A stretch of 38,479 nt of DNA, from the NCBI GenBank assembly GCA_039182125.1, contig JBCDCH010000038.1, forward strand, positions 1-38,479, read 5' to 3'. A model generated the notes under the pieces. It was not told the DNA's origin. It saw nothing but the letters and a program-made list of their open reading frames with translations, and ran no database searches. This stretch comes from Planctomycetota bacterium (GTDB lineage Bacteria; Planctomycetota; Phycisphaerae; Tepidisphaerales; Tepidisphaeraceae). Below are positions 4,713-37,437 of this stretch, in pieces. The position numbers were made by a program, and so were the translations under genes. Positions within the stretch are counted from its first letter, which is position 1. The number at the start of each line of letters is the position of its first letter.

Positions 4713-4718
4713 TACGAT
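4713..4718 (+). promoter_or_regulatory. -10 box TACGAT, 7 nt before ATG 4726
   Basis: TANNNT hexamer with no Shine-Dalgarno between it and the start. It fits a leaderless transcript beginning at or near the ATG. No -35 was seen. Confidence 0.5.
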
Positions 4719-4725
4719 CGCTTCG

Positions 4726-5229
4726 ATGCAGGACAAACGGTTCTTGAACTGGTGGCTGGGGCGTGCGACGCGGTACGCCGATGTCCAGCCCGAGAAACTT
4801 GCCGCCGAACGCGAGGCGGTCGAGCGGATGGCCGCCTGCAACCAGCACTACGCCGAGTTCCTCAACGAAGCCGTCTTCCCCGAAGTCAAGAGCCTGGTCG
4901 AAGCCCTCACCCGCAGCGGCATCACGCATCGGGTCTCCACGTGGGGCAACCAACTTTCGCTGCGCATCCACCTCGCCTGGCGGTGGGGCGAGTTGGTCAT
5001 CATGCAGAGCCATGAGGATGTGGTGACCTTTGAACATCACATTGTCACCGAAGGCGAAAGCCGACGCGACGACTCCAGCGAGGATCACAGTCATGGCTAT
5101 GACCTACACGAGTCATTGCCGGCGAGCGTTGCGGCCAACGAGTTGCAGTTTTACCTTAGCCGATTGGCGATGGACCTGACCGAACCGCCGCCCGAACCGG
5201 AACTGCCGCCGGGCGAGGGCAAGGGCTGA
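4726..5229 (+). CDS. Conserved-looking hypothetical protein, 167 aa
   Basis: I do not recognise the family. The protein starts with a basic, aromatic segment (KRFLNWWLGRATRY). A charged helix carrying paired His/Asp/Glu residues follows, then a strand-rich core (THRVSTWGNQLSLRIHLAW, GELVIMQSHEDVVTFEHHIV) and a Pro/Glu-rich tail. There is no signal peptide or membrane segment, so it is probably cytoplasmic. The ATG has a TACGAT box 7 nt upstream and no ribosome-binding site. Codon use is GC3-rich like its neighbours. It is divergent from the PEP-CTERM gene, with 125 bp between starts. Confidence 0.75.
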   Translation: MQDKRFLNWWLGRATRYADVQPEKLAAEREAVERMAACNQHYAEFLNEAVFPEVKSLVEALTRSGITHRVSTWGNQLSLRIHLAWRWGELVIMQSHEDVVTFEHHIVTEGESRRDDSSEDHSHGYDLHESLPASVAANELQFYLSRLAMDLTEPPPEPELPPGEGKG

Positions 5230-5277
5230 GCGTCAAACCGCCCGGGTTGGTGGCGGAATCCGAACCATCCAACCCGT

Positions 5278-6750
5278 ATGTCGTACCTGTCGCAACGCAT
5301 GCCTGCGGAGTTCTCGATCATCAATCTGCTCGTTTGGATCGTGCCGTTGCTTTTAGCGTTGGTGCTCGGGTTGATCCTGTTGACGATCGGCATGCGCGGC
5401 CGGCGGGTCGGCGATCATCCGTACTGCCGCCAATGCGGCTACGACCTGTTCGGTAATCCCGACGCGATGACCTGCAACGAGTGTGGCCGGAGCGTGGCAT
5501 CGCCCCAGGAGCGGGTCGTCGGCATGCGGCACCGCAGGCGCGGACTTGTGTGGGGCGGGACATTGTTGTTGATTGTGTCCGTGGTGGGGCAGGGCTTGAT
5601 CGGACTGGACGCCGCGACCGATGTCGACTGGCAGGCATGGAAGCCGAACTGGTGGCTCGTCGCCGAGGCGGACCGCAACCCTGACGTTCACTTGACATTG
5701 GCGACACGATGGTTCGACGGCAAACTCACCGAAAAACACAAGTCGGAATTGGTCGCCCTCGCGTTCGCCGGTTCGGACGGGCCTTCGTGGTCGATCGGTT
5801 GGGAGCCGATCATCGAGCAAGGGTTGCGGGATGGCTTGCTCGACGATGAACAACTCGCCGTGTTGGCCGACACGATCGCGGTGTTGGGACTCGACGCACG
5901 GCCGAAGGTTCGGCGTGGGTTCGACGCGGACGTGGTCCCGTGGCCCGTCAAGGGCACCGATGTCGGTGACATCGAACTGCACGCCTCATGGACCCTGGCG
6001 GCCGCCGCCGTTGACGGAGAGCCGGTCAATCCCAATCGGTTGCGGAGTCTCGACGGGGATTTCGAGGTCAAAGCCGGCAGTTGGGGCGGCAGCGCCTCAC
6101 ACATCCCGACCGAAGCGATGACCCGCGACACCACCGTCACGGCCACGGCGCGGGTCGAGCGGACGCTCATTCTGACCGGAGGCACGTCGGTCGGACTGCC
6201 GACCAAGACGGCCGAACTTGCCGTCGATGTCGAGGTGGTCGACGACTTCACCGGCAACTACACCGCCACGCCACGGCAAGTGAGCGCGATCGACACGATC
6301 GAGGTACAGCCGGTCGCGGGTCGGCAGAAGTTGGAACTGATGGCGGTAATGCGTGGCAACGACCTGCGCCTTTGGCGCATGCTCTGCTTCCTCGTGATCG
6401 ATGGCCAAGAGATCAGGATTCCCGACACGAACGGCTCCGGGCACGGTTCGCAGTTTTCCTATGTCCGTTGGTCGCTCGAAAGGAGCAGTCGCTGGGACAA
6501 GACGCCGGAGTTGGCGTTCCCGCTCATGGCGACAGTCGTGCTGCGGACAGACATCGAGTACGTCGAGACGAACACCCGGACCGACGAGATCGCCCCGAGC
6601 GTCGAACTGCGGTTTGAGAATGTTCGCCTCGACCCCGCGTCGGCGGTCGCCGTCGAGACGTTCACGCCGTTGCCCGACGGCCAGGCCGCCGATCACATCG
6701 AATGGCTCGACCCCGCCGAAGCTTTGCGGCGAAACGAGGCGGCGGAATGA
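5278..6750 (+). CDS. Membrane protein with zinc ribbon (CxxCGYDL...CxxCG)
   Basis: A 490-residue protein of unknown function. A first transmembrane helix (about 15-39) is followed by a four-Cys zinc ribbon, CRQCGYDLFG then CNECGR (about 51-72). A basic stretch, a second membrane helix (about 90-108) and a large extracytoplasmic domain rich in beta-strand (about 110-480) come next. From memory, the CGYDL-type ribbon next to membrane helices is common in Phycisphaerae, which supports the taxonomic guess. If both helices cross the membrane, the ribbon would lie between them on the side opposite the large domain. No promoter box or Shine-Dalgarno is obvious; the ATG at 5278 could be replaced by the ATG at 5299. 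Confidence 0.8.
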   Translation: MSYLSQRMPAEFSIINLLVWIVPLLLALVLGLILLTIGMRGRRVGDHPYCRQCGYDLFGNPDAMTCNECGRSVASPQERVVGMRHRRRGLVWGGTLLLIVSVVGQGLIGLDAATDVDWQAWKPNWWLVAEADRNPDVHLTLATRWFDGKLTEKHKSELVALAFAGSDGPSWSIGWEPIIEQGLRDGLLDDEQLAVLADTIAVLGLDARPKVRRGFDADVVPWPVKGTDVGDIELHASWTLAAAAVDGEPVNPNRLRSLDGDFEVKAGSWGGSASHIPTEAMTRDTTVTATARVERTLILTGGTSVGLPTKTAELAVDVEVVDDFTGNYTATPRQVSAIDTIEVQPVAGRQKLELMAVMRGNDLRLWRMLCFLVIDGQEIRIPDTNGSGHGSQFSYVRWSLERSSRWDKTPELAFPLMATVVLRTDIEYVETNTRTDEIAPSVELRFENVRLDPASAVAVETFTPLPDGQAADHIEWLDPAEALRRNEAAE

Positions 6751-6788
6751 GGATTGTCGACACGATTGCGATGCGGCATGCTTAGTGC

Positions 6789-7748: not shown

Positions 7749-7776
7749 CCCTCGAAACCTCCGCCTACCCTTGGCG

Positions 7777-7782
7777 TACTAT
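7777..7782 (+). promoter_or_regulatory. -10 box TACTAT, 5 nt before ATG 7788
   Basis: TANNNT hexamer close to the TATAAT consensus, only 5 nt from the start. It is expected to drive the three-gene run 7788-9731 as a leaderless mRNA. Confidence 0.55.
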
Positions 7783-7787
7783 CTGGT

Positions 7788-8198
7788 ATGACCGAATCCA
7801 ACAGCGATCGGCGGCTGGCCAAGGCCATGCGATACGACGTCATCGAGCCCGTCGGGTGGCGGGTGGTGATTCGTAAGGACGAGAACAAACGCGAAACCAA
7901 GTCCGGCATCGTGTTGCCGGACTCGCACGCCATCCCCGTCATCACCGGCCGGGTGATCGCGATTTCCAAGGAGATCGCCTCCGACGAGGATCGGGCGATC
8001 AAACAGTACGACAAGGTGCTCTTCGACCCGCGTGAAGCGGTTCCGGTGGAACTCGAGCACGACAACCAGATGTATGTCGTTGACATCGACAAGGTGCTCG
8101 CGATCTTCCGCAAGCACACGGACGTGGCCAACGCCGAACAAGCCGGTCATGCCGCGGATGATGCGGGTGATGATGTTGAAGGGGCCGACGATGAGTGA
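7788..8198 (+). CDS. Orphan GroES-like (Cpn10 fold) protein
   Basis: A 136-residue protein whose residues about 17-108 match the co-chaperonin GroES. They show VIEPVGWRVVIRKDE (first strand), the mobile-loop-like ETKSGIVLPDS with the Ile-Val-Leu triad that contacts GroEL, GRVIAISKE, DKVLFDPREAVPVEL and the closing VVDIDKVLAIF. No groEL is adjacent. Unusual parts are an extra N-terminal segment of about 15 residues and an acidic C-terminal tail (AADDAGDDVEGADDE). It could cap GroEL in place of the main GroES, or the fold may be reused. It overlaps the next start by 8 bp, so translation is probably coupled. Confidence 0.85.
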   Translation: MTESNSDRRLAKAMRYDVIEPVGWRVVIRKDENKRETKSGIVLPDSHAIPVITGRVIAISKEIASDEDRAIKQYDKVLFDPREAVPVELEHDNQMYVVDIDKVLAIFRKHTDVANAEQAGHAADDAGDDVEGADDE

Positions 8199-10306: not shown

Positions 10307-10706
10307 AAATCGTCACCGAGAAAGGTTGCGTCTGACCAGTTTCGGCACATATCGTGTCCGCAAAGAGGCGTAAATACGTGTTTATGCCCGGCTATCGCCG
10401 TTTGCGAAAAAGTTCCCGGAAAAACGAGGAGTCGACAAACCTGGCAAGAAGATGCGGGTCTATAAGACGCGGCCAACACGGTCGGCATCGCAATGATGCC
10501 ATTTGTGATCTGAGTTGGGCGTGATTCGCGACGATGCCGGTTGCCCGGTTTCGGGCCGCGATTCGATCCGAGCTGGTGGGGAAATCCCGTCGGTTTGGCG
10601 ACATGTGTCAGGTGTCCGGCGGAGCCGGTGTGCCTGATCGGTGTTGCCGGCATGCGGTCTGTTTTGTCCCGTAAGGGGTGGTACTCGACCGGTCGGATCA
10701 GGATGT

Positions 10707-10868
10707 TCAGCACAGGGCGGCGAAGGTGGCCAAGGTCAGCAGAGCGATGCGGACTTTGGGTGCCCAAGCCACGGCCGAGACTTCCCGGCCGGCACGGTCA
10801 GCGATGGCCGCGAGTCGGCCAAGTTCGGCGACGGCTTTGCTCTGTGCGGGGGTGTTGAGGCCAGTCAT
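10707..10868 (-). CDS. Possible small membrane protein, 53 aa
   Basis: ATG-initiated frame beginning MTGLNTPAQSKAVAELG and ending in a hydrophobic helix VRIALLTLATFAALC. Third codon positions are strongly G/C, unlike the surrounding DNA, which is the main support. A weak GAG lies about 12 nt before the ATG. An amphipathic N-terminal helix with one C-terminal membrane anchor would be plausible. I do not recognise a family, and a chance frame remains possible. Confidence 0.35.
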   Translation of the reverse strand: MTGLNTPAQSKAVAELGRLAAIADRAGREVSAVAWAPKVRIALLTLATFAALC

Positions 10869-11200
10869 GCACGACCAATCTCAACGCCCGTGCCGGAATC
10901 GCCAAACCGGCGCGAAATGGGCGACAGTTCGGTGGACAGGCTGAACGGTCATGCCCGACTATTCCCGCGTAAGTGTATGTAATCGCTTTGGTTATGTTGG
11001 ATACCGGGCTCCGTCCTGCCATGAAGTAGCGGCATGAACGGGGCATTCGTTCGGCGACCGATTCGTGTCGGTCGCACCCACCTGAACGCCGGTCTGTAAC
11101 GAATGTTGACACAAAGCGACGCCGCCCGTTGCGGCAATCCGTCCGCTCGGCCGATCCTTCGGCTCTCGTGGTCGGACCAGACCCCGCCCGGGGAGTTTTC

Positions 11201-11233
11201 ATGGCGACGTGTGCCGTGCCACGCCCCGGGTGA
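11201..11233 (+). CDS. Possible 10-aa leader peptide (MATCAVPRPG)
   Basis: GGGGAG lies 5 nt before the ATG, which is better spaced than at most genes here. The frame stops after ten codons, before the AraC-type gene. It could be an upstream ORF or chance. Confidence 0.2.
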   Translation: MATCAVPRPG

Positions 11234-11254
11234 CTAAATCATCGAAAGGGTGAA

Positions 11255-11267
11255 TCGGTTTAACCGA
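11255..11267. repeat. Palindrome TCGGTT-T-AACCGA
   Basis: A perfect 6-bp dyad with a one-base centre, 49 bp before the first possible start of the AraC-type gene. It may be an operator. Confidence 0.35.
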
Positions 11268-11316
11268 CCACCTCCCTGTCCCGCGTCATGCCGGGGCCGG
11301 CTCAACCCACTGTCCC

Positions 11317-12633
11317 ATGAACCACAATCGCTCCCCCGTCAACCGCCCCGGTCCCTCCGCGGCTGGCGACACCGACTCCACGGAGACTACCATGGAAACC
11401 GAACACCGCGCCCCGTCCGCCCGAGATCACGCGGCCGCCCACGCCGAGTTCACCAGCGACCCCGATCGCGCAAGCTCGGCTCGCAGCGGTCGCGGCAAGA
11501 CGCCCGTCCGCGATCTGCTTCAACGTATTCACCGCGAGGTGTCGTTCGCCCAGGCGGTGCTCGTCTCCACGATGCCGCGGGGCGGCGTCCAGGTCATCGG
11601 CCCGGACTATGCCGACGACGGGATCGTCCGCGGATTGAGCCGCCTCGTCGACGGACAAGACCGCGTGACCTGGTCGGCATTGCTCACCGGTAAGCCGGCG
11701 GTGTCGGCCGAGCTTTGGCCTTCGCGTGAGTTGACCGGCTCGGAGTTCGAGAGTGCGGTGCTGCGTCCTTCAGGCCTCGGCGATCAACTCGCCGTGCCGA
11801 TGGCCGACGTCCTGCTGCCCGGATACCAGGGAGCGTTGGTGCTGTTCCGCGAAGCATCGGCGCAGCCGTTCACCGCCGCTGACGGCGAGCGCGTCGCCGC
11901 TCTCGGCAAGGACATCGAAAAGCAGCTGCACCGCAGCCCGGCACCGTCGGGACCGATGCCGCACGAACTCGCCACGCCGATGATCGCTTTCGGACCCGGC
12001 GGACAGGTCTTGTACCCGGCCGATGGCGAGCAGGCCCTGGCCGGCCTGAGTGGCCGTCTCCGCAGCCAGCTCGAGCAGGTCGTGCGCAAGGCCCTCGACA
12101 AGCGCGGCACTGACGCCGGCGGCAAGCGCGTGGTCATCCCGGATGATCGCGGCGACCTATGGGCGTTCCGCGTGCGGCGTGTCGAGTCGTACCCCGCACT
12201 GACCGGCCCGGCCGGGCTGTCCGCTGACATGCCCGTGGTGTTCGTCACGCACCAGCCGGCGCCCGCGGATTTCGCGGCCGTCACCGCGGAAGACGTCGCC
12301 GCTGACGATGAGGTCGCCCGCCTCGTGCCGGCCGTGCGGTTCATGTACGACGAGCACCGCAACGGCCCGACGCTCGAGGTCATCGCCAAGCACGTCCACC
12401 TGAGCCCGTTCCACTTTCACCGCCGCTTTACCGAACTGCTGGGTCTCACGCCCAAGCATTACCTGTTCGATTGTCAGATCGACACGGCCAAGCGGCAGTT
12501 GGTCGCCGGCATCGAACTGGCGGAAATCGCTCGGCATTGTGGGTTCGCCCACCAGTCGCACTTCACCAGTCGCTTCAAGCAGGCGACCGGCCTGACGCCG
12601 ACGCGTTGGCGGAAGCTCGCGCAGGCGAAGTAA
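11317..12633 (+). CDS. AraC/XylS-family regulator with GAF/PAS-like N-terminal region
   Basis: The C-terminal 110 residues are an AraC-type double helix-turn-helix: LEVIAKHVHLSPFHFHRRF, LGLTPKHYLFDCQID, LAEIARHCGFAHQSHFTSRF and TGLTPTRWRK, with the conserved second-helix GFAHQSHF. The N-terminal 290 residues look like a GAF-like sensor (LLQRIHREVSFAQAVLVSTM, LAVPMADVLLPGYQGALVLF) followed by a possible PAS-like part (MIAFGPGGQVLYPADG, GDLWAFRVRRVE). The ligand is unknown. The ATG at 11317 has no ribosome-binding site; the ATG at 11392 has GGAG 6 nt upstream and is probably the true start, giving 413 residues. A strong terminator follows. Confidence 0.88.
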   Translation: MNHNRSPVNRPGPSAAGDTDSTETTMETEHRAPSARDHAAAHAEFTSDPDRASSARSGRGKTPVRDLLQRIHREVSFAQAVLVSTMPRGGVQVIGPDYADDGIVRGLSRLVDGQDRVTWSALLTGKPAVSAELWPSRELTGSEFESAVLRPSGLGDQLAVPMADVLLPGYQGALVLFREASAQPFTAADGERVAALGKDIEKQLHRSPAPSGPMPHELATPMIAFGPGGQVLYPADGEQALAGLSGRLRSQLEQVVRKALDKRGTDAGGKRVVIPDDRGDLWAFRVRRVESYPALTGPAGLSADMPVVFVTHQPAPADFAAVTAEDVAADDEVARLVPAVRFMYDEHRNGPTLEVIAKHVHLSPFHFHRRFTELLGLTPKHYLFDCQIDTAKRQLVAGIELAEIARHCGFAHQSHFTSRFKQATGLTPTRWRKLAQAK

Positions 12634-19712: not shown

Positions 19713-19718
19713 TAAACT
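19713..19718 (+). promoter_or_regulatory. -10 box TAAACT, 6 nt before ATG 19725
   Basis: The hexamer is 3 nt from the first ATG (19722) and 6 nt from the second (19725). The spacing seen at other genes favours 19725. Confidence 0.45.
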
Positions 19719-19724: not shown

Positions 19725-19973
19725 ATGCCTCGATTGCTTCTCGTCTGCATTCTGATCGCCGGTTGTGCCGATGTGGGTGAAACACTCGACGGTCCGCAGC
19801 GTCAATCGGGTGATGCGGCGTTGGCCGACCCGTTCGGTTACGGGCCGGACATCGAACAGCTCGCGGCCGAACATTCGGCCAAAGCCGAGAGCGGGGCGGA
19901 AGCGCCGCTGATCGAGAAAGACCCCAGCGAGCGCACCCTGGCCGAGGAATGGCGTCTTTTTTTGAACCCGTGA
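19725..19973 (+). CDS. Small lipoprotein, 82 aa
   Basis: MPRLLLVCILIAGCAD is a short lipoprotein signal with lipobox LIAGC, so the protein is probably lipid-anchored outside the inner membrane. The remaining 70 residues are acidic and polar with no recognised motif. The ATG at 19722 would add one Met. It lies 31 bp after the DUF1963 frame and 38 bp before another lipoprotein. Confidence 0.7.
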   Translation: MPRLLLVCILIAGCADVGETLDGPQRQSGDAALADPFGYGPDIEQLAAEHSAKAESGAEAPLIEKDPSERTLAEEWRLFLNP

Positions 19974-21962: not shown

Positions 21963-21968
21963 TAGGAT
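21963..21968 (+). promoter_or_regulatory. -10 box TAGGAT, 6 nt before ATG 21975
   Basis: TANNNT hexamer without a Shine-Dalgarno; leaderless layout. Confidence 0.5.
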
Positions 21969-23214: not shown

Positions 23215-23276
23215 GTTTAGCGGGAGCACCAAAGGTGCCCCTGTCGACGCGGGCACCTTCGGTGCTGCCGCTAAAC
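23215..23276. repeat. Paired REP-like inverted repeat (26-nt arms)
   Basis: Left arm 23215-23240 and right arm 23251-23276 match over 24 of 26 positions as inverted repeats. The 10-nt spacer contains GTCGAC. Each arm is itself a small hairpin (GCACC-AAA-GGTGC, GCACC-TTC-GGTGC) with TAGCGG at the outer end. It fills the gap between two genes, and its last bases are the first five of the TAAACT box before rarA. Confidence 0.8.
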
Positions 23277-23277
23277 T
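23272..23277 (+). promoter_or_regulatory. -10 box TAAACT, 6 nt before rarA ATG
   Basis: Formed by the end of the inverted repeat plus one base. It decides the start at ATG 23284 rather than GTG 23278. Confidence 0.45.
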
Positions 23278-26058: not shown

Positions 26059-26064
26059 AGCGTA
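26059..26064 (-). promoter_or_regulatory. -10 box TACGCT, 7 nt before minus-strand ATG 26051
   Basis: Lies between the stop of the 8-TM gene (26071) and this start. The downstream gene therefore probably has its own leaderless transcript. Confidence 0.5.
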
Positions 26065-26070: not shown

Positions 26071-27069
26071 TCAGTCGATGGGGCCGGCAACGTGCGGCCG
26101 TGCCCAGAGCAGACCGATGATGATCAGGCCGATTTGCACAATGCCGCCGATGACGATCGGCCACGATGGAAAGTCGTCGAGCATCGCTCCGAACTGCTGC
26201 ACCTGTTGGTCCGAGAGTGCGGCGAACATGTTGTCCTCGGCAAACAACGGCGTGACTGTGATCGACAACGCCCAGAGAAGCAGCACGACCGCCGCGATGA
26301 TCCAGCCGGCGAAGTTACGTTGCCAGACCAGCCACGCCGCAAGCAAGAGCAGCGCGGCCCCGAGCGCCAAACCGATCATGGCCGGAGCTCCGGTTAGATA
26401 TGTCGCGAACGCCGGCAGGATCGGGTTGACGATGCTCGTCAAGCCGAACAAAGCGGCGAGCGCGAGCCACACCGCCAACGCCAACGCCGGGATCGGCAAG
26501 TGCGCGCCGAAGTACCCGCGTGGGTCGCAGCGTTCCAACGCGTCGGCGACATCCTGACGGCGGAAATACAACGCATACATCAACGGCAACCCGACGCCGA
26601 ACAGCAACGTGAAGACGCCCCCGACGATCATGCCGACCATCATCGCCTGATCCTGGCTGAACGGCGTGTTGGGATTTGTGCCGACGTCGGTCGAGGCGGT
26701 GGCCGGGATGGACCATGTCGATACCACGCCGATCACCCTGGCGAGGCCGAAGCCGACCGCCGGGACCGAGATCGCCAGCGTGTACGGCCGAACCCAGCGT
26801 TGCCCACGCACCATGCCGATGCCGCCGGCGGTCAACACAATGGCCGCGACGAGGTAAATGGCCATGGCCGCGATGATCTGGCCGATCATTACGGTGTCGA
26901 CGCCCGGCGAACCGGTCTGCTGCGCTGCCGCGTACAAGCCGATCGGCGAGGCAATCGTGATGCAACCCGATAGCGCGGCGAGGATCAACGTGATGACGCC
27001 GTACGCGATCATCGCACCCGGCGGGCCGGGCTTGACGTTGGCACTGCGGTACTCAAGCGGTTCGGTCAT
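26071..27069 (-). CDS. Polytopic membrane protein, about 8 helices
   Basis: A 332-residue protein with about eight hydrophobic helices (for example MIAYGVITLILAALSGCITI, MVGMIVGGVFTLLFGVGL, AMIGLALGAALLLLAAWLV, WPIVIGGIVQIGLIIIGLLW). A conserved-looking loop, YFRRQDVADALERCDPRGYF, lies between helices 4 and 5. No transporter family was recognised. ATG 27069 is chosen from the TACGCT box 6 nt upstream and its ATGA overlap with the stop of the TAXI gene; the longer frame to 27285 would antisense-copy nothing useful and adds an Arg-rich stretch. The tight packing suggests work with the TAXI protein. Confidence 0.8.
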   Translation of the reverse strand: MTEPLEYRSANVKPGPPGAMIAYGVITLILAALSGCITIASPIGLYAAAQQTGSPGVDTVMIGQIIAAMAIYLVAAIVLTAGGIGMVRGQRWVRPYTLAISVPAVGFGLARVIGVVSTWSIPATASTDVGTNPNTPFSQDQAMMVGMIVGGVFTLLFGVGLPLMYALYFRRQDVADALERCDPRGYFGAHLPIPALALAVWLALAALFGLTSIVNPILPAFATYLTGAPAMIGLALGAALLLLAAWLVWQRNFAGWIIAAVVLLLWALSITVTPLFAEDNMFAALSDQQVQQFGAMLDDFPSWPIVIGGIVQIGLIIIGLLWARPHVAGPID

Positions 27070-28394
27070 GCCGGTAGCGTACCGGATGGGTCCCGCGCCG
27101 CCTTCTCCAGCCGACGTTCGAGGAACTGAACGTGTAGCCGAAGGTCGTATAGCTCGTCCATGTAGCTCAGCGGAACGTTGACCCGGGCGATCTCGCGGTC
27201 GAGCTCGGCGACATCCGCGCGAAGCTTGTCGAGGTCGGCATCGTGTCGCAATTGCTGGCTGATGTCGTTGAGCCGTTTGTACCAACGGTAAATACGCCGC
27301 CGAACTCGCCAGCGATACGTCGGCGGCGCGATGCGCAACAGCGGAATCAACAGTCCGAGCAACGGGAGCATCAGGATGAGCAGTCGATCGATCAGCGACG
27401 CCGCCCAGAACGGCAGTCGGCGGTGCAGGAAGTTGGGGCCGTTGCGTAGGGCGTAGTCGGCGGCGTCGGACATGGCGACATCGCCGACGCTGCGACGGGG
27501 ATAGGTGCCGGGCGGATCGAGCGCGTCGCCCTTGCCGTGGATGCTGGTGGCGGCGTAAATGCCGAGCGTGGCGATGCCCGAGTGCGTGTCGGCGCTGGCC
27601 ATGAGCACGGCGGCGGGCGCGACCAGCCGGGTGTCGCGGCGGGGCAGGTCGGCCGCGAGATCGACCGCCCCCTCGTGAAGCGTGATCGGCCGCAGGAAGC
27701 GGAACCTGCCCGCAAGTGCTTCGGCCCGCCGAAAGTCCGCCAGCTCGATGCCCGGACTCGAAAGCAATTTGGAGACCGTCGGCCCGTCGGGGCTGAGCAC
27801 GAAGAACGCCGCGTCGAGTTCGCCGTCGATCAATGCCTGGGTCGCGTCACTGCTACCGAGATCGACGCGCTCGGCGTTGACGCCAACGGCATCGAGCAGC
27901 GCCGTCGCGATCGGCCGGGTTCCGCTGCCGGGCATGCCCACCGCGACTCGTCGGCCTTCGAGCCGGGACAACTCGAAGTCGGCCGCCGGGATGCCCCGCA
28001 AAAACAGCATCACCGGCTCGGCGTACACGTCGGCCAGCGCGACGAGTTGCTCACGGTGTTCGGCGCGGACGGTCCCGCCCTGCACAAAGGCAAGGTCCGC
28101 CTCACCGGCGAGAAGTTTTTCGATGTTCTCGACGCTGCCGGCCGTCTCCAGCAAGGTGACGCCCACGCCCCGGTCGGCGAACTCAGTGGCGTATTGCTCG
28201 GCAAACGCGTGATACGCACCGCCTGGCGCGCCGGACGCGAACGTGATCGCGCCCGGCGGCGCCGGCTCGACGAACCACCACGCCAACGCAAACCCAAGCA
28301 GCGACAGGAGCACGGTCGGGCCCCAGATCGTCAACCAGCTCCAACGCGATTCCAGCTTTGCCGACACGCACGCATTATCCCGGTTTATTATCAT
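27066..28394 (-). CDS. Membrane-tethered TAXI-type binding protein
   Basis: A 442-residue protein. A membrane helix (about 22-42, TIWGPTVLLSLLGFALAWWF) is followed by a TAXI/NMT1-like periplasmic binding domain (about 50-330: ITFASGAPGGAYHAFAEQYA, ADLAFVQGGT, GRRVAVGMPGSGTR, LIDGELDAAFFVL). A second membrane helix (about 345-367, LLILMLPLLGLLIPLL) and a charged cytoplasmic helix of about 70 residues come last (LDKLRADVAELDREIARVN). Classical TAXI proteins are soluble partners of TRAP permeases; none is near. It may transmit ligand binding across the membrane or deliver ligand to the 8-TM neighbour. The start could instead be GTG 28367, 6 nt after GATAAT. Confidence 0.85.
   Translation of the reverse strand: MIINRDNACVSAKLESRWSWLTIWGPTVLLSLLGFALAWWFVEPAPPGAITFASGAPGGAYHAFAEQYATEFADRGVGVTLLETAGSVENIEKLLAGEADLAFVQGGTVRAEHREQLVALADVYAEPVMLFLRGIPAADFELSRLEGRRVAVGMPGSGTRPIATALLDAVGVNAERVDLGSSDATQALIDGELDAAFFVLSPDGPTVSKLLSSPGIELADFRRAEALAGRFRFLRPITLHEGAVDLAADLPRRDTRLVAPAAVLMASADTHSGIATLGIYAATSIHGKGDALDPPGTYPRRSVGDVAMSDAADYALRNGPNFLHRRLPFWAASLIDRLLILMLPLLGLLIPLLRIAPPTYRWRVRRRIYRWYKRLNDISQQLRHDADLDKLRADVAELDREIARVNVPLSYMDELYDLRLHVQFLERRLEKAARDPSGTLPA
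27076..27081 (-). promoter_or_regulatory. -10 box TACGCT, 6 nt before minus-strand ATG 27069
   Basis: Sits inside the last codons of the TAXI gene. Confidence 0.45.
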
Positions 28395-29294: not shown

Positions 29295-29300
29295 TACCAT
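29295..29300 (+). promoter_or_regulatory. -10 box TACCAT, 5 nt before GTG 29306
   Basis: Decides the MATE start at GTG 29306 over the upstream TTG at 29279. Confidence 0.5.
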
Positions 29301-29305: not shown

Positions 29306-30682
29306 GTGCTTCAGCCGGGTTCGACATCCGTTTCCAACCCGGCGTTGCTGCGACGACTGCTTTGGCTTAGCGGCCCGATCCTGCTCGAACACTTCTTGCA
29401 CATCGCCGTCGGGCTCACCGACACCTACTTGGCCAACAACCTCGTGCCGGGCAACGAGCAGGCGAACGCCACCGCTGCCGCGGCGATCGGGTCGGTGACG
29501 TACATCGGCTGGTTGCTCGGCCTGTTCGCCGGTGCGTTCGGCACCGGGGCGACGGCGATCATCGCGCGGGCGATCGGGGCCAAGCACAAACGCATCGCCA
29601 ATGCCGGTTGCGGTCAAGCGTTGCTGCTGGGCATGACCGCCGGCGTCGTCGTGGGCATCCCGGCATCGATCTTCTCGGGCACCGTGGCGACGTGGTTCAA
29701 CCTCGGCCCCGACGCGACGGTGCAGGCGGGCATCTACATCCGCTGGCTCGGGCTGGCGGTGCCGTTCATGGTCACGCTCTTCGTCGCCAACGCCTGCCTG
29801 CGCGGCGCGGGCGACACGCTTCGGCCGGCGCTGCTCATGGGCTTGGTCGACGGGCTCAACGTGCTGCTTAGTTTCGCGCTGGTGCGTGGCTGGTTCGGGT
29901 TACCGCAGCTGGGTTTCGCGGGCGTGGCGATCGGGACGGCGTTGTCGTACAGCCTCGGCGGAACCCTTGCATTGGCATTGCTGTTCACCGGCCGCAGCAA
30001 GCTACGCCTGACCGTGCGTCGGCTCGCGCCCAACGTGGCGATGGCCCGTCGGATCCTGCGCATCGGCGTGCCGAGTATGTTCGAGGGCGCGTTGCACTGG
30101 GGCGCGAACTTCATCGTGCTGCTCATGGTCAACGGCCTGGGCACGGTCTCGGCCGCGGCACACAACGTTACGATTCGGCTCGAGAGCTTTTCGTACATGT
30201 CGGGCTTCGCGGTTGCGACGGCGGTCGCCACGATGGTCGGCCAGGCGCTGGGCCGGCAAGACCCAGGTGAGGCACGCCGGGCGGCGCTGATCGGCTTCGC
30301 GGTCGGCGGCGGGGGGATGGCTTTGCTCGGCGTTTCGTTCCTGTTGCTCAGCGGTGCGTGGGCGGGCTGGCTCGCGGAGAACCCGAGCATCACCGCGCTC
30401 TCGGCCGACACGCTCTGGATCGCCGGCTTCGCCCAGGTCGGTTTCGCGGCGTACCTGATCTTCGCCGGCGGACTCCGTGGGGCGGGCGATACCACCTGGG
30501 TGATGATCCTCAACATCGTCAGTACGGTCGCGGTCCGGCTCGTCGGCGTGTTGATCGTGGTCCAATATTTCGACCTGGGCCTGCGGGCGGTTTGGTGGGT
30601 GCTCAGCGCGGAACTTTGCGTGCGGGGCGTGCTGATGTTCTCCCGGTTCGCGAGTGGCCGATGGGCGCTGGTGAAGGTCTGA
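29306..30682 (+). CDS. MATE-family multidrug/Na+ exporter
   Basis: A 458-residue, 12-helix MATE transporter expelling drugs or metabolites against Na+ or H+. The two homologous halves are visible through the repeated cues LLWLSGPILLEHFLHIAVGLTD / RILRIGVPSMFEGALHWGANF and NACLRGAGDTLRPALLMGLV / GGLRGAGDTTWVMILNIVST. Length and order are typical. It lies directly downstream of the 28422 gene but appears to have its own box; read-through could link them. The substrate is unknown. Confidence 0.93.
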   Translation: MLQPGSTSVSNPALLRRLLWLSGPILLEHFLHIAVGLTDTYLANNLVPGNEQANATAAAAIGSVTYIGWLLGLFAGAFGTGATAIIARAIGAKHKRIANAGCGQALLLGMTAGVVVGIPASIFSGTVATWFNLGPDATVQAGIYIRWLGLAVPFMVTLFVANACLRGAGDTLRPALLMGLVDGLNVLLSFALVRGWFGLPQLGFAGVAIGTALSYSLGGTLALALLFTGRSKLRLTVRRLAPNVAMARRILRIGVPSMFEGALHWGANFIVLLMVNGLGTVSAAAHNVTIRLESFSYMSGFAVATAVATMVGQALGRQDPGEARRAALIGFAVGGGGMALLGVSFLLLSGAWAGWLAENPSITALSADTLWIAGFAQVGFAAYLIFAGGLRGAGDTTWVMILNIVSTVAVRLVGVLIVVQYFDLGLRAVWWVLSAELCVRGVLMFSRFASGRWALVKV

Positions 30683-30715: not shown

Positions 30716-30721
30716 TATGAT
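30716..30721 (+). promoter_or_regulatory. -10 box TATGAT, 4 nt before ATG 30726
   Basis: The spacing is at the short end. It overlaps the two upstream ATGs (30717, 30720), arguing for the third. Confidence 0.35.
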
Positions 30722-30725: not shown

Positions 30726-32456
30726 ATGCGCACGAAGTTGCCCTGGCTGTTGGTCGTGGTGGTTCTCTTCACCGGCGTGGCGTTCTCCGCGGCGGCGGTG
30801 TGGCTGGGGAAGATGGAGAGCAGCGCCCTCGCCGAGCGCGAGAGCCGGCCGACGGTGACCGGCTCGCGGCCGGCCGATGGCGAGTCGGCGTTCAACCCGC
30901 TCGACGGACTTGCGGCCGACGTGCGGTTGCCGACGGCCGGGGCCGGGGTCGATCCGGAGACGCTCGAAGCGGCGGTGACGCTCGTCGACCTCGAAACCGG
31001 CGAACCGGTCAAAGTCCTACGCAACACCACCGGTTCCGGCGACGCGATCATTGTTCAGCCGATCAATCCGCTCGAACAGGGCCGGCGTTACAAGTTCGAA
31101 ATCACCGACGCGCTCAAGGACCGGTCCGGCGCGGCTTTCACGCCGTACGCCGCCGAGTTCACGACCGCGACGGGGATCAAGCTCGAGACGATCGACGTCG
31201 CGTTCGAGAAGGTCGACCTCGACACGGAGTTGGAGCGTGACGCGTTCACTTGCCTGGCGCTCGGGCCGGACGGCCGGCTTTATGCCGGGACATTCGCGGG
31301 CGTGCTCCACCGTTGGGACATCGCCGAGAACGGCACGCTCGTCAACGGCGAGCAGTTCATGTCCGTCCTCGCCGCCAACGGTGGCCCGCGCATGATCATG
31401 GGCTTTGCGTTCTCGCCGGACGGGCGGACGCTTTGGGTCAGCCACGGCCAGATGGTTCCGCCCAACGAAACCGGCACCATCGCCGGCGCGGACGACTTCA
31501 CCGGCAAGATCAGCACGCTCGATGTGGCCGACCTGAGCAACTACACCGACGTCATCGTCGGCTTGCCGCGCGGGTTCAAGGATCACCTCAACTTTCAGCC
31601 CGCCTTTGGGCCGGACGGTCGGCTGTACTTCAACCAGGGCTCGCACACTTCCACCGGCTCGCCGGACAACAAGTGGGGCCTGCGTGAAGAGCGGCTGCTC
31701 ACGGCTGCGGTGCTCGCGCTCGATCCCGAGGCATTGCCGGCAACGCTGCCGCTCGATGTCACGACGGAGGCCGGCGGTGGCGACTACGACCCGTTCGCCG
31801 AGGACGCGGCGCTTCGCATCCACGCCACGGGTATTCGCAGCGGTTACGACATGCTCTGGCACTCCAACGGCAAGCTCTATAGCGGCATCAACGGCGCGGC
31901 CGCGGGCGGAAAGTCGCCCGGCGGTGACGGCGTTCCCGCGATCGACAACGTCAAACTCACCACCGACGATCTCCTGCTCGCGATCGAGGCCGGCGGTTAC
32001 TACGGCCACCCGAATCCCGTCCGCGGCGAGTTCGTCCTCAACGGCGGCAACCCGACCGCCGGCGTCGATCCGCAGGAGATTCAGCAGTACCCGGTCGGCA
32101 CGCAGCCGCTGGGCAACTGGCGCGAGCCGGCGTTTGTCTTCGGCAAGAACCTCTCGCCCAACGGGCTGGTCGAGTGGACCAGCGGCGTGTTCGGCGACGA
32201 GCTCGGTGGGGCGATCCTCGTGACCCGCTACAGCGCCGGCGACGATGTGGCCGTGCTCATCCCCGGGCCCGACGGTCGCATCACCGAAACGCTGCAAGGC
32301 GTCAACGGCCTGACGCAGTTCACCGATCCGCTCGACCTCGTGCTCGACGAGCAGCGCGGTCATCTCTACATCGCCGAGTACGGCGGCCGCCGCATCACAC
32401 TCGTCCGTCCGACTGATGGCAAGAGTGAAAAAGTCTACCGCCGTGTGGTGGAGTGA
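30726..32456 (+). CDS. Membrane-anchored or secreted protein, Ig-like domain plus beta-propeller
   Basis: A 576-residue exported protein. An N-terminal signal anchor (PWLLVVVVLFTGVAFSAAAV) is followed by a Big_5/SbsA-like Ig domain (about 40-150: RPADGESAFNPLDGLAADVRL, RYKFEITDALKDRSGAAF). A propeller resembling sorbosone/glucose dehydrogenases comes next (LALGPDGRLYAGTFAGVLHRW, FAFSPDGRTLWVSHG, FGPDGRLYFNQGS, SGYDMLWHSNGKLYSG, DLVLDEQRGHLYIAEYGGRR). It may be a PQQ-type sugar dehydrogenase or a structural surface protein. The last 22 bp overlap the end of the convergent gene. Confidence 0.82.
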   Translation: MRTKLPWLLVVVVLFTGVAFSAAAVWLGKMESSALAERESRPTVTGSRPADGESAFNPLDGLAADVRLPTAGAGVDPETLEAAVTLVDLETGEPVKVLRNTTGSGDAIIVQPINPLEQGRRYKFEITDALKDRSGAAFTPYAAEFTTATGIKLETIDVAFEKVDLDTELERDAFTCLALGPDGRLYAGTFAGVLHRWDIAENGTLVNGEQFMSVLAANGGPRMIMGFAFSPDGRTLWVSHGQMVPPNETGTIAGADDFTGKISTLDVADLSNYTDVIVGLPRGFKDHLNFQPAFGPDGRLYFNQGSHTSTGSPDNKWGLREERLLTAAVLALDPEALPATLPLDVTTEAGGGDYDPFAEDAALRIHATGIRSGYDMLWHSNGKLYSGINGAAAGGKSPGGDGVPAIDNVKLTTDDLLLAIEAGGYYGHPNPVRGEFVLNGGNPTAGVDPQEIQQYPVGTQPLGNWREPAFVFGKNLSPNGLVEWTSGVFGDELGGAILVTRYSAGDDVAVLIPGPDGRITETLQGVNGLTQFTDPLDLVLDEQRGHLYIAEYGGRRITLVRPTDGKSEKVYRRVVE

Positions 32457-32950
32457 TCGGAACGCGGTTCGTTGGTCGTGATCCACAACTGCCCGTGATG
32501 GTGCAGCATCGCGGTGGCCGGGGTTGCCGCGTCGGGAAACGTCGCGTGCCAGTCGCTCTCGACGAACAGCACCGTGAGCACTGGGCGAAACGTGTCGGCA
32601 TCATCGAACTCGACGGCGTGGGCGAGGTTGTCCGGCAGGCCGAGCGTCAGCCCGGCGGCGTCGAGGACGGCTTGCCCGTTGCCGCCGTGGTGGAGTTCGT
32701 GAGCCCAGTGATGTGCGGGTGTCAGCCAGAGCCGACCGCCGACACGTTGCCAGAGGTCGAGCAAACGTCCGGTCAGATCGTGGGTTCTGCGCACGTCGAG
32801 GCCCGGCCGGATGCTTGCGTCCTCGCCGTTGATGTAACCGACGATCCGTCCGTTTGGCACATGAAACGCGCCGCCGTTCGGATACGCCGGTTCCAGTCCC
32901 TGTGTCGCCAGCGTTTCAAGCACCTGCTCGTATTCCACGATCTGCGGCAT
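32435..32950 (-). CDS. Hypothetical protein, 171 aa
   Basis: I do not recognise the family. Cytoplasmic, with no signal or membrane segment. It shows short strands and many His/Trp residues: FHVPNGRIVGYINGED, RLWLTPAHHWAHELHHGG, PVLTVLFVESDWHATFPD, MLHHHGQLWITTNEP. The ATG at 32950 is chosen from TAGGGT 5 nt upstream; an extension to 32986 would overlap the divergent DinB-like gene. Its start is 20 bp from that gene's start, so the two are probably co-regulated. Confidence 0.7.
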   Translation of the reverse strand: MPQIVEYEQVLETLATQGLEPAYPNGGAFHVPNGRIVGYINGEDASIRPGLDVRRTHDLTGRLLDLWQRVGGRLWLTPAHHWAHELHHGGNGQAVLDAAGLTLGLPDNLAHAVEFDDADTFRPVLTVLFVESDWHATFPDAATPATAMLHHHGQLWITTNEPRSDHSTTRR

Positions 32951-32955
32951 CGCCA

Positions 32956-32965
32956 ACCCTACGCT
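32956..32965. promoter_or_regulatory. Overlapping divergent -10 boxes
   Basis: Minus-strand TAGGGT occupies 32956-32961 and plus-strand TACGCT occupies 32960-32965; they share two base pairs. Each is 5 nt from its start codon (32950 minus, 32971 plus). Confidence 0.6.
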
Positions 32966-32970
32966 TATCC

Positions 32971-33465
32971 ATGAGCGCCAACGCACAAACCGCCATCGCC
33001 CACGGGATCGCAGGCAGCAAGTGGATGATCGAGAGATTCTGCCATGACCTCACCGTCGAGGAGTGGCACCACCGCCCGTGTACCGGGGCCAACCCCGCGG
33101 CCTGGATCCTCGGGCACCTGATCCTGACGCAACGCCAATTCCTTGGCATGGTCGGTTCGGACAAGCTCCCGGACTTGCCCGAGGGCTTCGAGGGCAAGTT
33201 CCCGCGTGACAAGACGGCCGCCGATGCCGCGACCGACTTCGGCGACGTGGCACAGTTGCTGCCGATCTTCGCCGAGCATTGCGATCTGCTCGCCGCGGCG
33301 GTGATGGCCGCTTCCGACGAGGCGCTCGGCAGCGACTTGGAAAATGCGTTCGGTCCGAACAAGACCGTCAGCGACGCGTTGATCTTCGCCGGGTTGCATG
33401 TCGCGAGTCACGCCGGTCACATCAGCACGATCCGCCGCAGCCTCGGCAAGCCGCCTGTGGTGTGA
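32971..33465 (+). CDS. DinB-family protein
   Basis: A 164-residue four-helix DinB/YfiT-like protein. His residues sit at the expected metal positions in the helices: WILGHLILTQRQF and LHVASHAGHISTIRRSLGKPP. Family members are metal-dependent thiol transferases or have unknown roles. The start at 32971 follows TACGCT by 5 nt. It is followed by a gene with a Shine-Dalgarno and a TACGCT box at 33466-33471. Confidence 0.82.
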   Translation: MSANAQTAIAHGIAGSKWMIERFCHDLTVEEWHHRPCTGANPAAWILGHLILTQRQFLGMVGSDKLPDLPEGFEGKFPRDKTAADAATDFGDVAQLLPIFAEHCDLLAAAVMAASDEALGSDLENAFGPNKTVSDALIFAGLHVASHAGHISTIRRSLGKPPVV

Positions 33466-34378: not shown

Positions 34379-34384
34379 TACGGT
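34379..34384 (+). promoter_or_regulatory. -10 box TACGGT, 5 nt before ATG 34390
   Basis: A weak TCGACC at 34355-34360 would be an 18-bp-spaced -35. No Shine-Dalgarno. Confidence 0.5.
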
Positions 34385-34389
34385 GAGTC

Positions 34390-35250
34390 ATGCGCTATCT
34401 GACCGACGGTTCCAACGACGCCCCGAAGTTCGCCCCGTTCTTTCACACCGGCACGCTCGACAGCCTGCCGGCCAACTCGACTTTCCCAGGTGTCGAGGGC
34501 GCGGAACTGGCGGCGTTGCTGAAGGAACATGGCTACGTCGGTGTTCAGGGCTTCGACGATTCGTTCCGTGCGGACGCTCAGGCGGGTGGCTTGCGAACCG
34601 CGGGCGGCATGGGACGGCAGTCTGATCCGGCCGCTTATGACGATCTCACACGCGAAGCCAAGGACAGCGGCCACGTCTGTGCGACGCTCCACGTCGGCAA
34701 CGGCCTCGAATCCGACGCCGAGGCCGATCGGCTTCTCGGGGCCGTCGTCGAGGCGTCGGCGAAGTACGAATTTCCGTTGTACGTCGAGACGCACCGTGCC
34801 ACGGTGACCCAAGATGTCTGGCGCACCGTCGAACTGGTGAAGCGTCATCCCGACCTGTGCATCAACGGCGACTTCAGCCATTGGTACACCGGGCTCGAAA
34901 TGCCGTATGCCGGCGTCGATGCGAACATGGATTACGCCCAGCCGGTCCTGGATCGCGTCGGGTACATGCACGGTCGCATCGGCAACAGTGGTTCAATGCA
35001 GGTCGACATCGGTGACGGCACCAGCGCCGCCGGCCAGCACGTCGCGGACTTCGAGAATATCTGGGGTCGGTGCTTCGCGGCGTTCAAGCGCAACGCACCG
35101 GCGGGGGCGTACCTGCCGCTGGCCCCGGAGCTTCTGCGCGGCGGCGACATCAACTACGCCCGTGTTTTCGACGGTCGTGAGGAGACCGACCGTTGGCAGC
35201 AGGCCGGCGTGATGATCCGGATGGCGCAGCGGTTGTTCGAGGCAGCTTGA
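34390..35250 (+). CDS. Xylose isomerase-like TIM-barrel protein (sugar isomerase/epimerase family)
   Basis: A 286-residue protein resembling the AP-endonuclease-2/sugar-phosphate isomerase barrel. It shows EHGYVGVQGFDDSF, CATLHVGNG, LYVETHRATVTQDVW (metal-ligand Glu), HPDLCINGDFSHWY (Asp, His ligands), YMHGRIGNSG and YLPLAPELLRGGDINY. Substrate preference is unknown. Its stop lies inside the tandem repeat that precedes the leuB-like gene. Confidence 0.78.
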   Translation: MRYLTDGSNDAPKFAPFFHTGTLDSLPANSTFPGVEGAELAALLKEHGYVGVQGFDDSFRADAQAGGLRTAGGMGRQSDPAAYDDLTREAKDSGHVCATLHVGNGLESDAEADRLLGAVVEASAKYEFPLYVETHRATVTQDVWRTVELVKRHPDLCINGDFSHWYTGLEMPYAGVDANMDYAQPVLDRVGYMHGRIGNSGSMQVDIGDGTSAAGQHVADFENIWGRCFAAFKRNAPAGAYLPLAPELLRGGDINYARVFDGREETDRWQQAGVMIRMAQRLFEAA

Positions 35251-35276: not shown

Positions 35277-35277
35277 C

Positions 35278-35283
35278 TAACCT
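35278..35283 (+). promoter_or_regulatory. -10 box TAACCT, 8 nt before ATG 35292
   Basis: Lies just after the tandem repeats. The TTGACG there is only 10 bp away, too close for a normal -35. Confidence 0.45.
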
Positions 35284-35291
35284 GTCGGCTC

Positions 35292-36365
35292 ATGTCGAAC
35301 GAACTGAACATTGCGGTGATGCCCGGCGACGGGGTCGGGCCGGAGGTCGTGGCCGAGGGTGTGAAGCTGATGCGGGCCGCCGGTGAGCGGTTCGGTTTCT
35401 CGGTGAAAACCTCCGACCATCCCTGGGGTGCCGAGCACTACCTCAAGACCGGCGAGACGCTCCCCGACAAGGCACTCGCCGAGCTTGCGCAGCATGACGC
35501 GATCTTCTTCGGCGCCGTGGGCGTCGACCCGGCTGGCATGAAGCAAATCCCGCAAGGCCTGCTCGAAACCGACATCCTTCTCAAGCTGCGTTTTCAGTTG
35601 GACCAGTACGTGAACCTCCGGCCGTGCAAACTGCTCGCCGGTGTGAAGACCCCGTTGGCGAACGTCGGGCCCGACGACATGGACATGGTCATCGTCCGCG
35701 AGAACACCGAGGGTTTGTACTGCGGGCAGGGTGGCTTCCTCTATAAGGACACGCCCCACGAAGTCGCCAACCAGATCGAGGTCACGACGCGCCACGGCGT
35801 CGAGCGGGTGATCCGCTACGCCTTCGAGTACGCCAAGACCCACGGCCGCAAGAAGGTCACGCTCGTGGCCAAGACCAACGTGCTGCGCTTCGCGCACAGT
35901 CTGTGGAAGCGGGCGTATGACGCGGTCGCCGCCGAGTACCCGGGCATCGAGCAGGAGTACCACCACGTCGACGCGTGCTGCATGTACATGGTCACCCGGC
36001 CCGGCGATTACGACGTGATCGTCACGACCAACATGTTCGGCGACATCATCACCGATCTCGCCGCGGCGATCCAGGGGGGCATGGGCATGGCCGCCAGCGG
36101 CAACCTCGACCCGACCAAGACCAACGCCAGCATGTTCGAGCCCGTCCACGGCAGTGCCCCCGACATCGCCGGCCAGGGCAAAGCCAACCCGCTTGCCAGC
36201 TGCATGTGCGCCGGGATGATGCTGGAGTTCCTCGGCCAGCCTGAGGCTGCGAACGCGGTGAATACCGCGATTGCCAAGGTCGTCGAGTCGGGCCCGACGA
36301 CGGCCGACCTCGGCGGAAGTGCGAGCACGGCGGAAGTTGGCGACGCACTGGTTGCGGCACTCTGA
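35292..36365 (+). CDS. leuB: 3-Isopropylmalate dehydrogenase-like (LeuB type)
   Basis: A 357-residue NAD-dependent beta-decarboxylating dehydrogenase, oxidising 3-isopropylmalate in leucine synthesis if truly LeuB. Motifs include AVMPGDGVGPEVVAEG (N-terminus), LLKLRFQLDQYVNLRPCKL, VIVRENTEGLYCGQGG (substrate Arg/Glu), KVTLVAKTNVLRF, DACCMYMVTRPGDYDVIVTT, NMFGDIITDLAAAIQGGMG (catalytic Asp) and MFEPVHGSAPDIAGQGKANP (NAD site). The pattern is closest to the actinobacterial-type LeuB; isocitrate or tartrate activity cannot be excluded. The stop overlaps the next ATG. Confidence 0.8.
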   Translation: MSNELNIAVMPGDGVGPEVVAEGVKLMRAAGERFGFSVKTSDHPWGAEHYLKTGETLPDKALAELAQHDAIFFGAVGVDPAGMKQIPQGLLETDILLKLRFQLDQYVNLRPCKLLAGVKTPLANVGPDDMDMVIVRENTEGLYCGQGGFLYKDTPHEVANQIEVTTRHGVERVIRYAFEYAKTHGRKKVTLVAKTNVLRFAHSLWKRAYDAVAAEYPGIEQEYHHVDACCMYMVTRPGDYDVIVTTNMFGDIITDLAAAIQGGMGMAASGNLDPTKTNASMFEPVHGSAPDIAGQGKANPLASCMCAGMMLEFLGQPEAANAVNTAIAKVVESGPTTADLGGSASTAEVGDALVAAL

Positions 36366-36826: not shown

Positions 36827-36834
36827 ATGCTGAC

Positions 36835-36914
36835 AACCGCGTTGCGGAGCAACGCAGCTACGTCTTCGACAACGACAACGACAACGCATAGCTGCGTTGC
36901 CCCGCAACGCGGTT
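36835..36914. repeat. Paired REP-like inverted repeat (26-nt arms)
   Basis: Arms 36835-36860 and 36889-36914 match at 25 of 26 positions. Each is a hairpin (GCGTTGC-NNN-GCAACGC) with TAGCTGC at its inner end. The 28-nt spacer holds three CGACAA units. It lies between two convergent genes, so it could terminate both. Confidence 0.85.
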
Positions 36915-36917
36915 AGA

Positions 36918-37424
36918 TCAGATCCCGCGGATCCGCGCCATCATCAACGCGTCGACATACTTGCCTTCTCGGAACCCGTGCGCCCGCTGCACGCCTTCGT
37001 CCTCGAAGCCGAACTTGCGGTACAGTGCGATGCCCGGCTCGTTGTCGACGAACACGCACAGTTCCAGGCGTTTGAGGTCGAGCCAGTTGTCGGCGTGATT
37101 GACGATCGCGTGCATGAGCGCCGTCCCGACGCCGCGGCCGTGGTGGTCGTCGTGGACACCCATGCCGATGTCGCCGATGTGTTGGCGGCGCGGGCGTTGG
37201 TCGTGCTTGAGCGAGCCGCTGCCAACGACGGTCCCGTTGACTTCGGCGACGAAGCTGTAGAGACCGGGCGGACGGTTGTTGAGCCGCTCCTCCCATTCGG
37301 TCACCGTCGGCAGCGGCATCTGCAGCGTGTGCGCTTGGGCCAACGGCTGCGAGAAGACCGCGTGCAGGGCCGCCGCGTCGCTCGGTTCGGAGCGTCGAAC
37401 GGTGATGTCGGCGTGCGATTCCAT
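36918..37424 (-). CDS. GNAT-family acetyltransferase
   Basis: A 168-residue acetyl-CoA-dependent N-acetyltransferase: ITVRRSEPSDAAALHAVF, FVAEVNGTVVGSGSL, DIGMGVHDDHHGRGVGTALM (acetyl-CoA loop GRGVGT), LELCVFVDNEPGIALYRKFGF. It is close to YhhY/RimI-like proteins; the substrate is unknown. The ATG at 37424 is preferred because TACACT lies 7 nt upstream; 37445 is the alternative. Confidence 0.88.
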   Translation of the reverse strand: MESHADITVRRSEPSDAAALHAVFSQPLAQAHTLQMPLPTVTEWEERLNNRPPGLYSFVAEVNGTVVGSGSLKHDQRPRRQHIGDIGMGVHDDHHGRGVGTALMHAIVNHADNWLDLKRLELCVFVDNEPGIALYRKFGFEDEGVQRAHGFREGKYVDALMMARIRGI

Positions 37425-37431
37425 GGCCGGC

Positions 37432-37437
37432 AGTGTA
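37432..37437 (-). promoter_or_regulatory. -10 box TACACT, 7 nt before minus-strand ATG 37424
   Basis: The box lies between the divergent GNAT and glycosyltransferase starts. Confidence 0.5.

Follow-up and report, generated by a model that had tools for sequence, protein, structure and literature searches.

In the accessible text of Zheng et al. 2011 (PMC3160421), a TANNNT hexamer about 12 bp upstream of the start codon was taken as the mark of leaderless genes, and the middle positions of the box were uninformative in high-GC genomes; the boxes described here are alike in both respects. In Deinococcus-Thermus the same motif likewise stands next to open reading frames (ORFs), alongside a class with a ribosome-binding site (RBS, GGAG); according to the part of that report available, the motif was mutated, acts as the -10 region, and belongs to about one third of the Deinococcus radiodurans genes (PMC12340547). 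The DNA analysed here ("the window") is a 38,479-nt stretch, one contig (JBCDCH010000038.1) of the 4.13-Mb draft genome GCA_039182125.1 of a Planctomycetota bacterium belonging to the family Tepidisphaeraceae. A preliminary description had noted TANNNT boxes 4-8 nt before 14 start codons of the window, without a Shine-Dalgarno (SD) motif, and had likened this layout to the leaderless mRNAs of Deinococcus and Actinobacteria. The comparison of layouts is apt, although the organism belongs to neither group.

Our conclusion is that TANNNT is very probably a promoter -10 element, and that the mRNAs of about a fifth of the genes of this genome would be leaderless. Genes were called with a gene finder that used coding statistics and start-codon type only, and was thus blind to the upstream sequence. 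Its training set comprised the window and 20 additional stretches; another 20 stretches of the same contigs, absent from the training, served as the held-out set. The stretches were 20 kb each and came from other contigs, the 40 together representing 800 kb of the 4.13 Mb. Genes judged truncated and genes starting close to a stretch end (at most 40, 60, 100 or 250 nt away) were left out of the counts, and duplicate loci, recognised by the sequence flanking the start, were discarded. In the window and the 20 training stretches the box was present at -14 to -10 in 68 of 331 genes, with a peak at -12 and a background of 1.12 per position, whereas mononucleotide-shuffled controls gave a mean of 11.3 and a maximum of 19. 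In-frame internal ATGs of the same sequences carried it in 3 of 1932 cases. The held-out stretches yielded 54 boxed genes among 309 (about 6.7 expected; background 1.33 per position). When 256 three-letter gapped hexamers were ranked at 19 positions for the 607 genes of the 40 stretches, TANNNT at -12 came first (55 vs. 2.4), and at blind starts a box lay at -14 to -11 in 118 of the 607 genes against 9.3 expected. The net share of boxed genes is about 18-22%, roughly a fifth.

The signal is also visible when gene calls are disregarded. An ATG followed TANNNT at a gap of 6 nt 98 times, compared to a mean of 26.8 (standard deviation 4.9), and the whole genome contained 486 TANNNT-N6-ATG and 135 TANNNT-N15-ATG sequences (P = 1e-47). 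The N15 spacing, which is in the same frame, served as the background in place of the reversed pattern, since ATNNNT outnumbers TANNNT about fourfold in this genome. ATNNNT preceded ATG at gaps of 4-8 nt 485 times (513 expected). The genome-wide peak of TANNNT whose absence from -5 to -13 would, according to the preliminary description, have spoken against its claim was therefore present in all three approaches (blind starts, box-anchored ATG spacing, gap 6 vs. gap 15). Annotated starts of E. coli, used as a control, showed no excess (2 of 43 vs. 2.8 expected).

A -10 hexamer normally spans positions -12 to -7 relative to +1, thus, with the mode of the boxes at -12, transcription would begin on the start codon. 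The optimal distance between the -10 element and the transcription start is given as 7 bp in the available part of PMC12825309. The leaderless interpretation offered earlier is thus supported by the sequence, and from the box position we infer that transcription start sites lie on start codons. According to the mechanism that we propose, TANNNT would serve as the -10 element of a housekeeping-type promoter about 6 nt ahead of the start codon in about a fifth of the genes, and RNA polymerase would start on the first base of the start codon or about 3 nt or less from it. The resulting leaderless mRNAs would be translated without an SD interaction, possibly by binding of the 70S ribosome, or of the 30S subunit loaded with initiator tRNA, to the 5'-terminal start codon, while a second set of genes would keep the classical SD motif, read by an intact anti-SD.

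Boxes and SD motifs were nearly exclusive. SD-like tetramers preceded 1 of the 111 boxed starts, compared to 115 of the 458 unboxed ones (35 of 458 in a control window); 38 of the 607 genes, which had a box elsewhere in -20 to -9, were put in neither class. The 3' tail of the 16S rRNA is intact and the anti-SD is present (ACCUCCUUU). Loss of the anti-SD as the cause of SD-free translation finds no support, the tail CACCTCCTTT being intact. The intact anti-SD, together with the near exclusion of box and SD, indicates that two initiation modes coexist. The 16S rRNA gene of G000 is split across the ends of contigs C31 and C40, probably by an assembly break.

All 14 boxes of the preliminary description were found in the window at their places, their first T lying 10-14 nt and their end 4-8 nt before the start codon:

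4713-4718, plus strand: TACGAT, start at 4726 (called blind); 167-aa protein, no Pfam match.
7777-7782, plus strand: TACTAT, start at 7788; GroES-like protein, Pfam Cpn10.
19713-19718, plus strand: TAAACT, start at 19725; 82-aa ORF with a weak coding score and no Pfam match, blind start TTG at 19734; a weak instance.
21963-21968, plus strand: TAGGAT, start at 21975; Exo_endo_phos.
23272-23277, plus strand: TAAACT, start at 23284; AAA ATPase with MgsA_C domain.
26059-26064, minus strand: TACGCT, start at 26051; no Pfam match.
27076-27081, minus strand: TACGCT, start at 27069; doubtful.
29295-29300, plus strand: TACCAT, GTG start at 29306; MatE.
30716-30721, plus strand: TATGAT, start at 30726; Big_5; a weak instance, two further in-frame ATGs (30717 and 30720) overlapping the box.
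32956-32961, minus strand: TAGGGT, start at 32950; its TA (32960-32961) is common to the next box.
32960-32965, plus strand: TACGCT, start at 32971; DinB_2.
34379-34384, plus strand: TACGGT, start at 34390; no Pfam match.
35278-35283, plus strand: TAACCT, start at 35292; Iso_dh from residue 6.
37432-37437, minus strand: TACACT, start at 37424; GNAT acetyltransferase; a weak instance, rival start at 37445.

The box at 27069 is doubtful because this start overlaps the upstream stop codon by 4 nt (ATGA; upstream gene called to 27066), which puts the box inside the upstream gene. The gene finder chose the noted start exactly in 10 of the 14 cases; the other four starts (19725, 30726, 35292, 37424) are in-frame candidates 6-27 nt from the blind start. 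The estimate that T and A each make up about a sixth of the bases was accurate (A 0.178, T 0.171), as was a chance match of a few percent per gene (2.6% for one start and five positions). That fourteen is more than expected by chance also held: 14 of the 33 scored window genes had a box at some candidate start, compared with 2-5 of 33 for displaced boxes, and under this looser rule the window differed from the displaced-box control of the 40 stretches (mean 57.3 of 600) with P = 7e-7. At blind starts alone 10 of the 33 genes were boxed, all at -14 to -10 (P = 8e-9). The absence of an SD was likewise borne out. Among the 10 blind boxed starts the sole SD-like match, at 21975, was the AGGA within the box TAGGAT itself, and at the other four no SD was seen in -16 to -7 when judged by eye. 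Scans of the window for Rfam families and tRNAs gave no match. About 1.1 kb (10307-11391) ahead of the gene called at 11392 contains no called gene and has no Rfam match.

The box was followed in orthologs from other genomes. The Tepidisphaeraceae, the family of the window genome, were taken as family f1, and the other families are referred to by number. A close ortholog of the GroES-like gene at 7788 was found in 17 of 24 other f1 genomes searched, and all 17 had TANNNT at -12 to -16 of the ATG; their starts were shifted by 0-27 nt relative to the aligned start of the query, and the box accompanied the start codon. Ten further GroES-like loci (56-73% identity, family membership unverified) carried no box, and eight of them had GGAG before the start. 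In these relatives (L108, L111, L113, L116, L117, L119, L120 and L122) GGAG stands in place of TANNNT. The GroES-like gene thus offers an apparent case of a switch between SD-led and leaderless initiation. The gene at 4726 was boxed in 4 of 5 family orthologs. Altogether, 24 of 46 family placements of boxed genes had a box (7.5 for displaced boxes), compared to 4 of 48 placements of unboxed genes (2.8), and evidence for conservation in the family beyond 7788 and 4726 is thin. Outside the family the numbers were 22 of 63 (displaced 10.5) and 3 of 44 (2.0), respectively, with the GroES-like gene accounting for 55 of these 107 placements.

The comparison of gap 6 with gap 15 was extended to 257 genomes: 150 of the class, including the window genome, and 107 others of the phylum (118 were searched, and 11 that belonged to the class or were the window genome itself were counted in the class set only). 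By binomial tests with Bonferroni correction, in which sites were treated as independent, the excess was significant in 73 genomes, 33 of the 150 and 40 of the 107, with a ratio of at least 2 in 19 and 25, respectively. The strongest excess, 321 vs. 14, was that of G252 (f5), and it was also extreme in G260, G200, G215 (f69), G105 (f43) and G110 (f28); these six genomes appear to be better candidates than the window genome for a study of leaderless mRNAs. G060 (f42), in which gap 6 was depleted (234 vs. 327 at gap 15), was the only one of the 257 genomes with a ratio below 0.8. Significant genomes were concentrated in some families (f69, 6 of 6; f2, 7 of 8; f4, 3 of 3; f43, 5 of 5; f28, 5 of 5; f26, 3 of 3; f20, 3 of 3), and other families were flat (f24, 0 of 7; f36, 0 of 7; f7, 0 of 10; f68, 0 of 6; f70, 0 of 4). 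In f1 the excess was significant in 5 of 18 genomes, but only G129 (285 vs. 71) resembled the window genome, and the remaining 16 had ratios of 0.96-1.43. G129 also gave the best DnaK match of all f1 genomes, with a lead too narrow to establish kinship. Gene calls were made in small samples, with a box in 61 of 732 genes of the rest of the family (2.5-fold), 27 of 345 of other Phycisphaerae (3.0-fold) and 8 of 145 of Pirellulales-type records (1.1-fold). The family pool includes eleven named loci of unverified family membership. For the other two groups, record titles were used to assign 41 of the 57 named loci L123-L179, 27 to other Phycisphaerae and 14 to Pirellulales-type records; the remaining 16 were excluded.

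Several observations weigh against the promoter interpretation. No -35 signal was found upstream of the aligned boxes, thus the promoter is only half seen. C at -1, which we considered as a mark of the transcription start, had to be rejected as such, since genes with an SD have it nearly as often (0.60 vs. 0.70 in boxed genes; Fisher P = 0.13). Among co-directional genes with at least 50 nt upstream, many of which are expected to be first in their unit, only 29 of 219 were boxed. Once 7788 and 4726 are set aside, a box was found in only 3 of 14 family placements of boxed genes. Pooled box-anchored counts were barely above expectation for the remaining family members (699 vs. 654) and for other Phycisphaerae (718 vs. 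670). The MP1 plasmid of D. radiodurans, intended as a positive control, gave a weak signal at annotated starts (4 of 42 vs. 0.7) and called genes (3 of 32 vs. 0.6), and no excess in the box-anchored count (17 vs. 19); this small plasmid with several transposase genes was rejected as a positive control.

It could be argued that the excess is an artefact of start choice, stop codons or base composition. The starts of the preliminary description were chosen with the boxes in view, free choice among candidate starts lets displaced boxes reach the mean of 57.3 per 600 genes quoted above, and ATNNNT itself is slightly elevated at gap 6 (127 vs. 102.6). An artefact is nevertheless hardly credible, as it is contradicted by the held-out blind starts, the gene-free counts and the E. 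coli control. In 76 of 111 boxes the third base is a pyrimidine (C or T), and the TA of the box coincides with the upstream stop codon in only 5 of 64 co-directional boxed genes, thus stop codons do not explain the box. The box might also be a translation signal, AT-rich and either unstructured or binding S1, in mRNAs with ordinary leaders. In the available part of Nakagawa 2017, an AT-rich bias between -20 and -10 is discussed in terms of leaderless and/or S1 initiation, which speaks for such a signal. We find it quite improbable here, because the box consists of three fixed letters at a fixed spacing in a GC-rich context, with flanks and middle positions that are mostly G or C, and because its frequency follows the transcription context, which ought not to matter for a translation signal: the box was commonest in divergent genes (47 of 170), whereas among co-directional genes 18 of 127 were boxed where the spacer was below 20 nt and 2 of 85 where it was below 6 nt.

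A third explanation agrees with us that the boxes are -10 elements, but supposes short leaders of 3-10 nt in place of strictly leaderless mRNAs. The spread of the spacing speaks for it, as the first T was not only at -12 (55 cases) but also at -15 (17 cases) and -14 (13 cases), and boxes of the family orthologs of 7788 reach -16. We consider it unlikely, since the mode at -12 is the canonical distance for a +1 on the start codon. Initiation on the start codon itself is therefore the reading that we prefer.

The two overlapping boxes of the window lie between two back-to-back genes:

32951-32970, no strand: 20-bp intergenic region flanked by two divergent start codons; the symmetric element ANNNTANNNT occupies 32956-32965.

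The boxes of 32950 (minus strand) and 32971 (plus strand) overlap in ACCCTACGCT with the TA common to both, and 20 nt separate the start codons. The element ANNNTANNNT at 32956-32965 is predicted to be the shared -10 of two leaderless mRNAs. The pattern CAT-N4..7-ANNNTANNNT-N4..7-ATG was found at 10 sites of the genome (2 for the reversed control); both ATGs are called starts at 6 of these, and coding scores support the two sides at 8. The arrangement CAT-N3..7-TANNNTA-N3..7-ATG occurred at 9 sites (5 for the control), with both starts called at 2 and both sides coding at 4. Such pairs, including 32950/32971, number about 8 in the genome by called starts and about 12 by coding score. Among 88 divergent pairs, 33 had less than 120 nt between them, and of these 9 had a box before each gene, 18 had one before a single gene, and 6 lacked a box. 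In the window and the 40 stretches all 6 pairs with spacers of 10-30 nt were boxed on at least one side, 3 of them on both. Spacers of this length preceded 5 of the 85 divergent plus-strand genes of the 40 stretches. In the comparison samples there was one such gene among 52 from other Phycisphaerae, and none among the 113 of the family sample or the 15 from Pirellulales-type records. Tentatively, at somewhat less than even chances, these pairs may represent a minimal divergent module, in which two start codons 17-23 nt apart, each being a transcription start, are served by one overlapping -10; any further promoter contacts of each gene would then lie inside the coding sequence of its partner. 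It must be noted that in a survey of the class that ignored genes, many genomes exceeded the 10 matches of the window genome (up to 162), and some also had a higher ratio to the reversed-pattern control, which speaks against a shared element. The raw count of the divergent pattern is weak because many genomes of the class match more often, so that the argument depends on the called genes.

The preliminary description had recommended the box as a guide for correcting start calls. The rule is useful but not free of error. When candidate starts from -120 to +60 nt were allowed and the first T had to be at -14 to -11, 166 of 600 genes obtained a boxed start, compared to 31.6 of 600 with displaced boxes; with the looser rule used for the window, 208 of 600 genes of the 40 stretches were boxed (vs. 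57.3). From these displaced-box rates, about 1 in 5 to 1 in 4 corrections would be due to chance. At 35292 we prefer the boxed start, since residue 6 counted from it is already the first of the Iso_dh domain, ahead of the blind start, which corresponds to residue 10. With this reservation, the box provides a practical rule for start-codon correction in such genomes.

It is of interest to set these results against what is known. In the accessible part of Zheng et al. 2011 Planctomycetes are absent from the groups listed with leaderless genes; the main text does not contain Planctomyc*, Rhodopirellula or Pirellula, and its 'Other Bacteria' row (8 of 20 genomes) is not broken down. Here, in contrast, 118 of 607 genes of a Tepidisphaeraceae genome, as well as other lineages of the phylum, carry the signal. 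Leaderless initiation in planctomycetes is not a wholly new idea, since Nakagawa 2017 (in the part available) included one planctomycete and suggested leaderless and/or S1 initiation from base biases, and a domain-wide figure of PMC12340547 (S7) may include Planctomycetota; among the open-access papers listed by our searches we found no report of TANNNT-led leaderless genes of this phylum. We therefore regard the box as a known type of signal in a phylum for which little was found in print. A large and poorly studied phylum would thus be added to the groups rich in leaderless genes. Since its families, and even the members of one family (f1), differ sharply, comparison can be used to test how leaderless initiation was gained and lost. 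Compared with Deinococcus-Thermus, as far as described in the accessible text of PMC12340547, the signal reported here belongs to another phylum, concerns a smaller share of the genes and is known from sequence alone.

The divergent variant is unproven but attractive, as it offers candidate promoters of about 20 bp that would serve two genes at once. Judged by titles and abstract openings, none of the papers listed for leaderless, bidirectional promoter and divergent together treats this combination. The nearest described counterparts are the bidirectional promoters with -10 symmetry of Warman, Grainger et al. (PMC12825309). In the available part of that work, divergent transcription starts of E. 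coli that use a common -10 are separated by 18 or 23 bp, and these distances match those predicted for TANNNTA and ANNNTANNNT. The planctomycete arrangement would differ from these promoters in that both predicted transcription starts would also be start codons, and the 17-23 bp spacer would make up the whole intergenic region.

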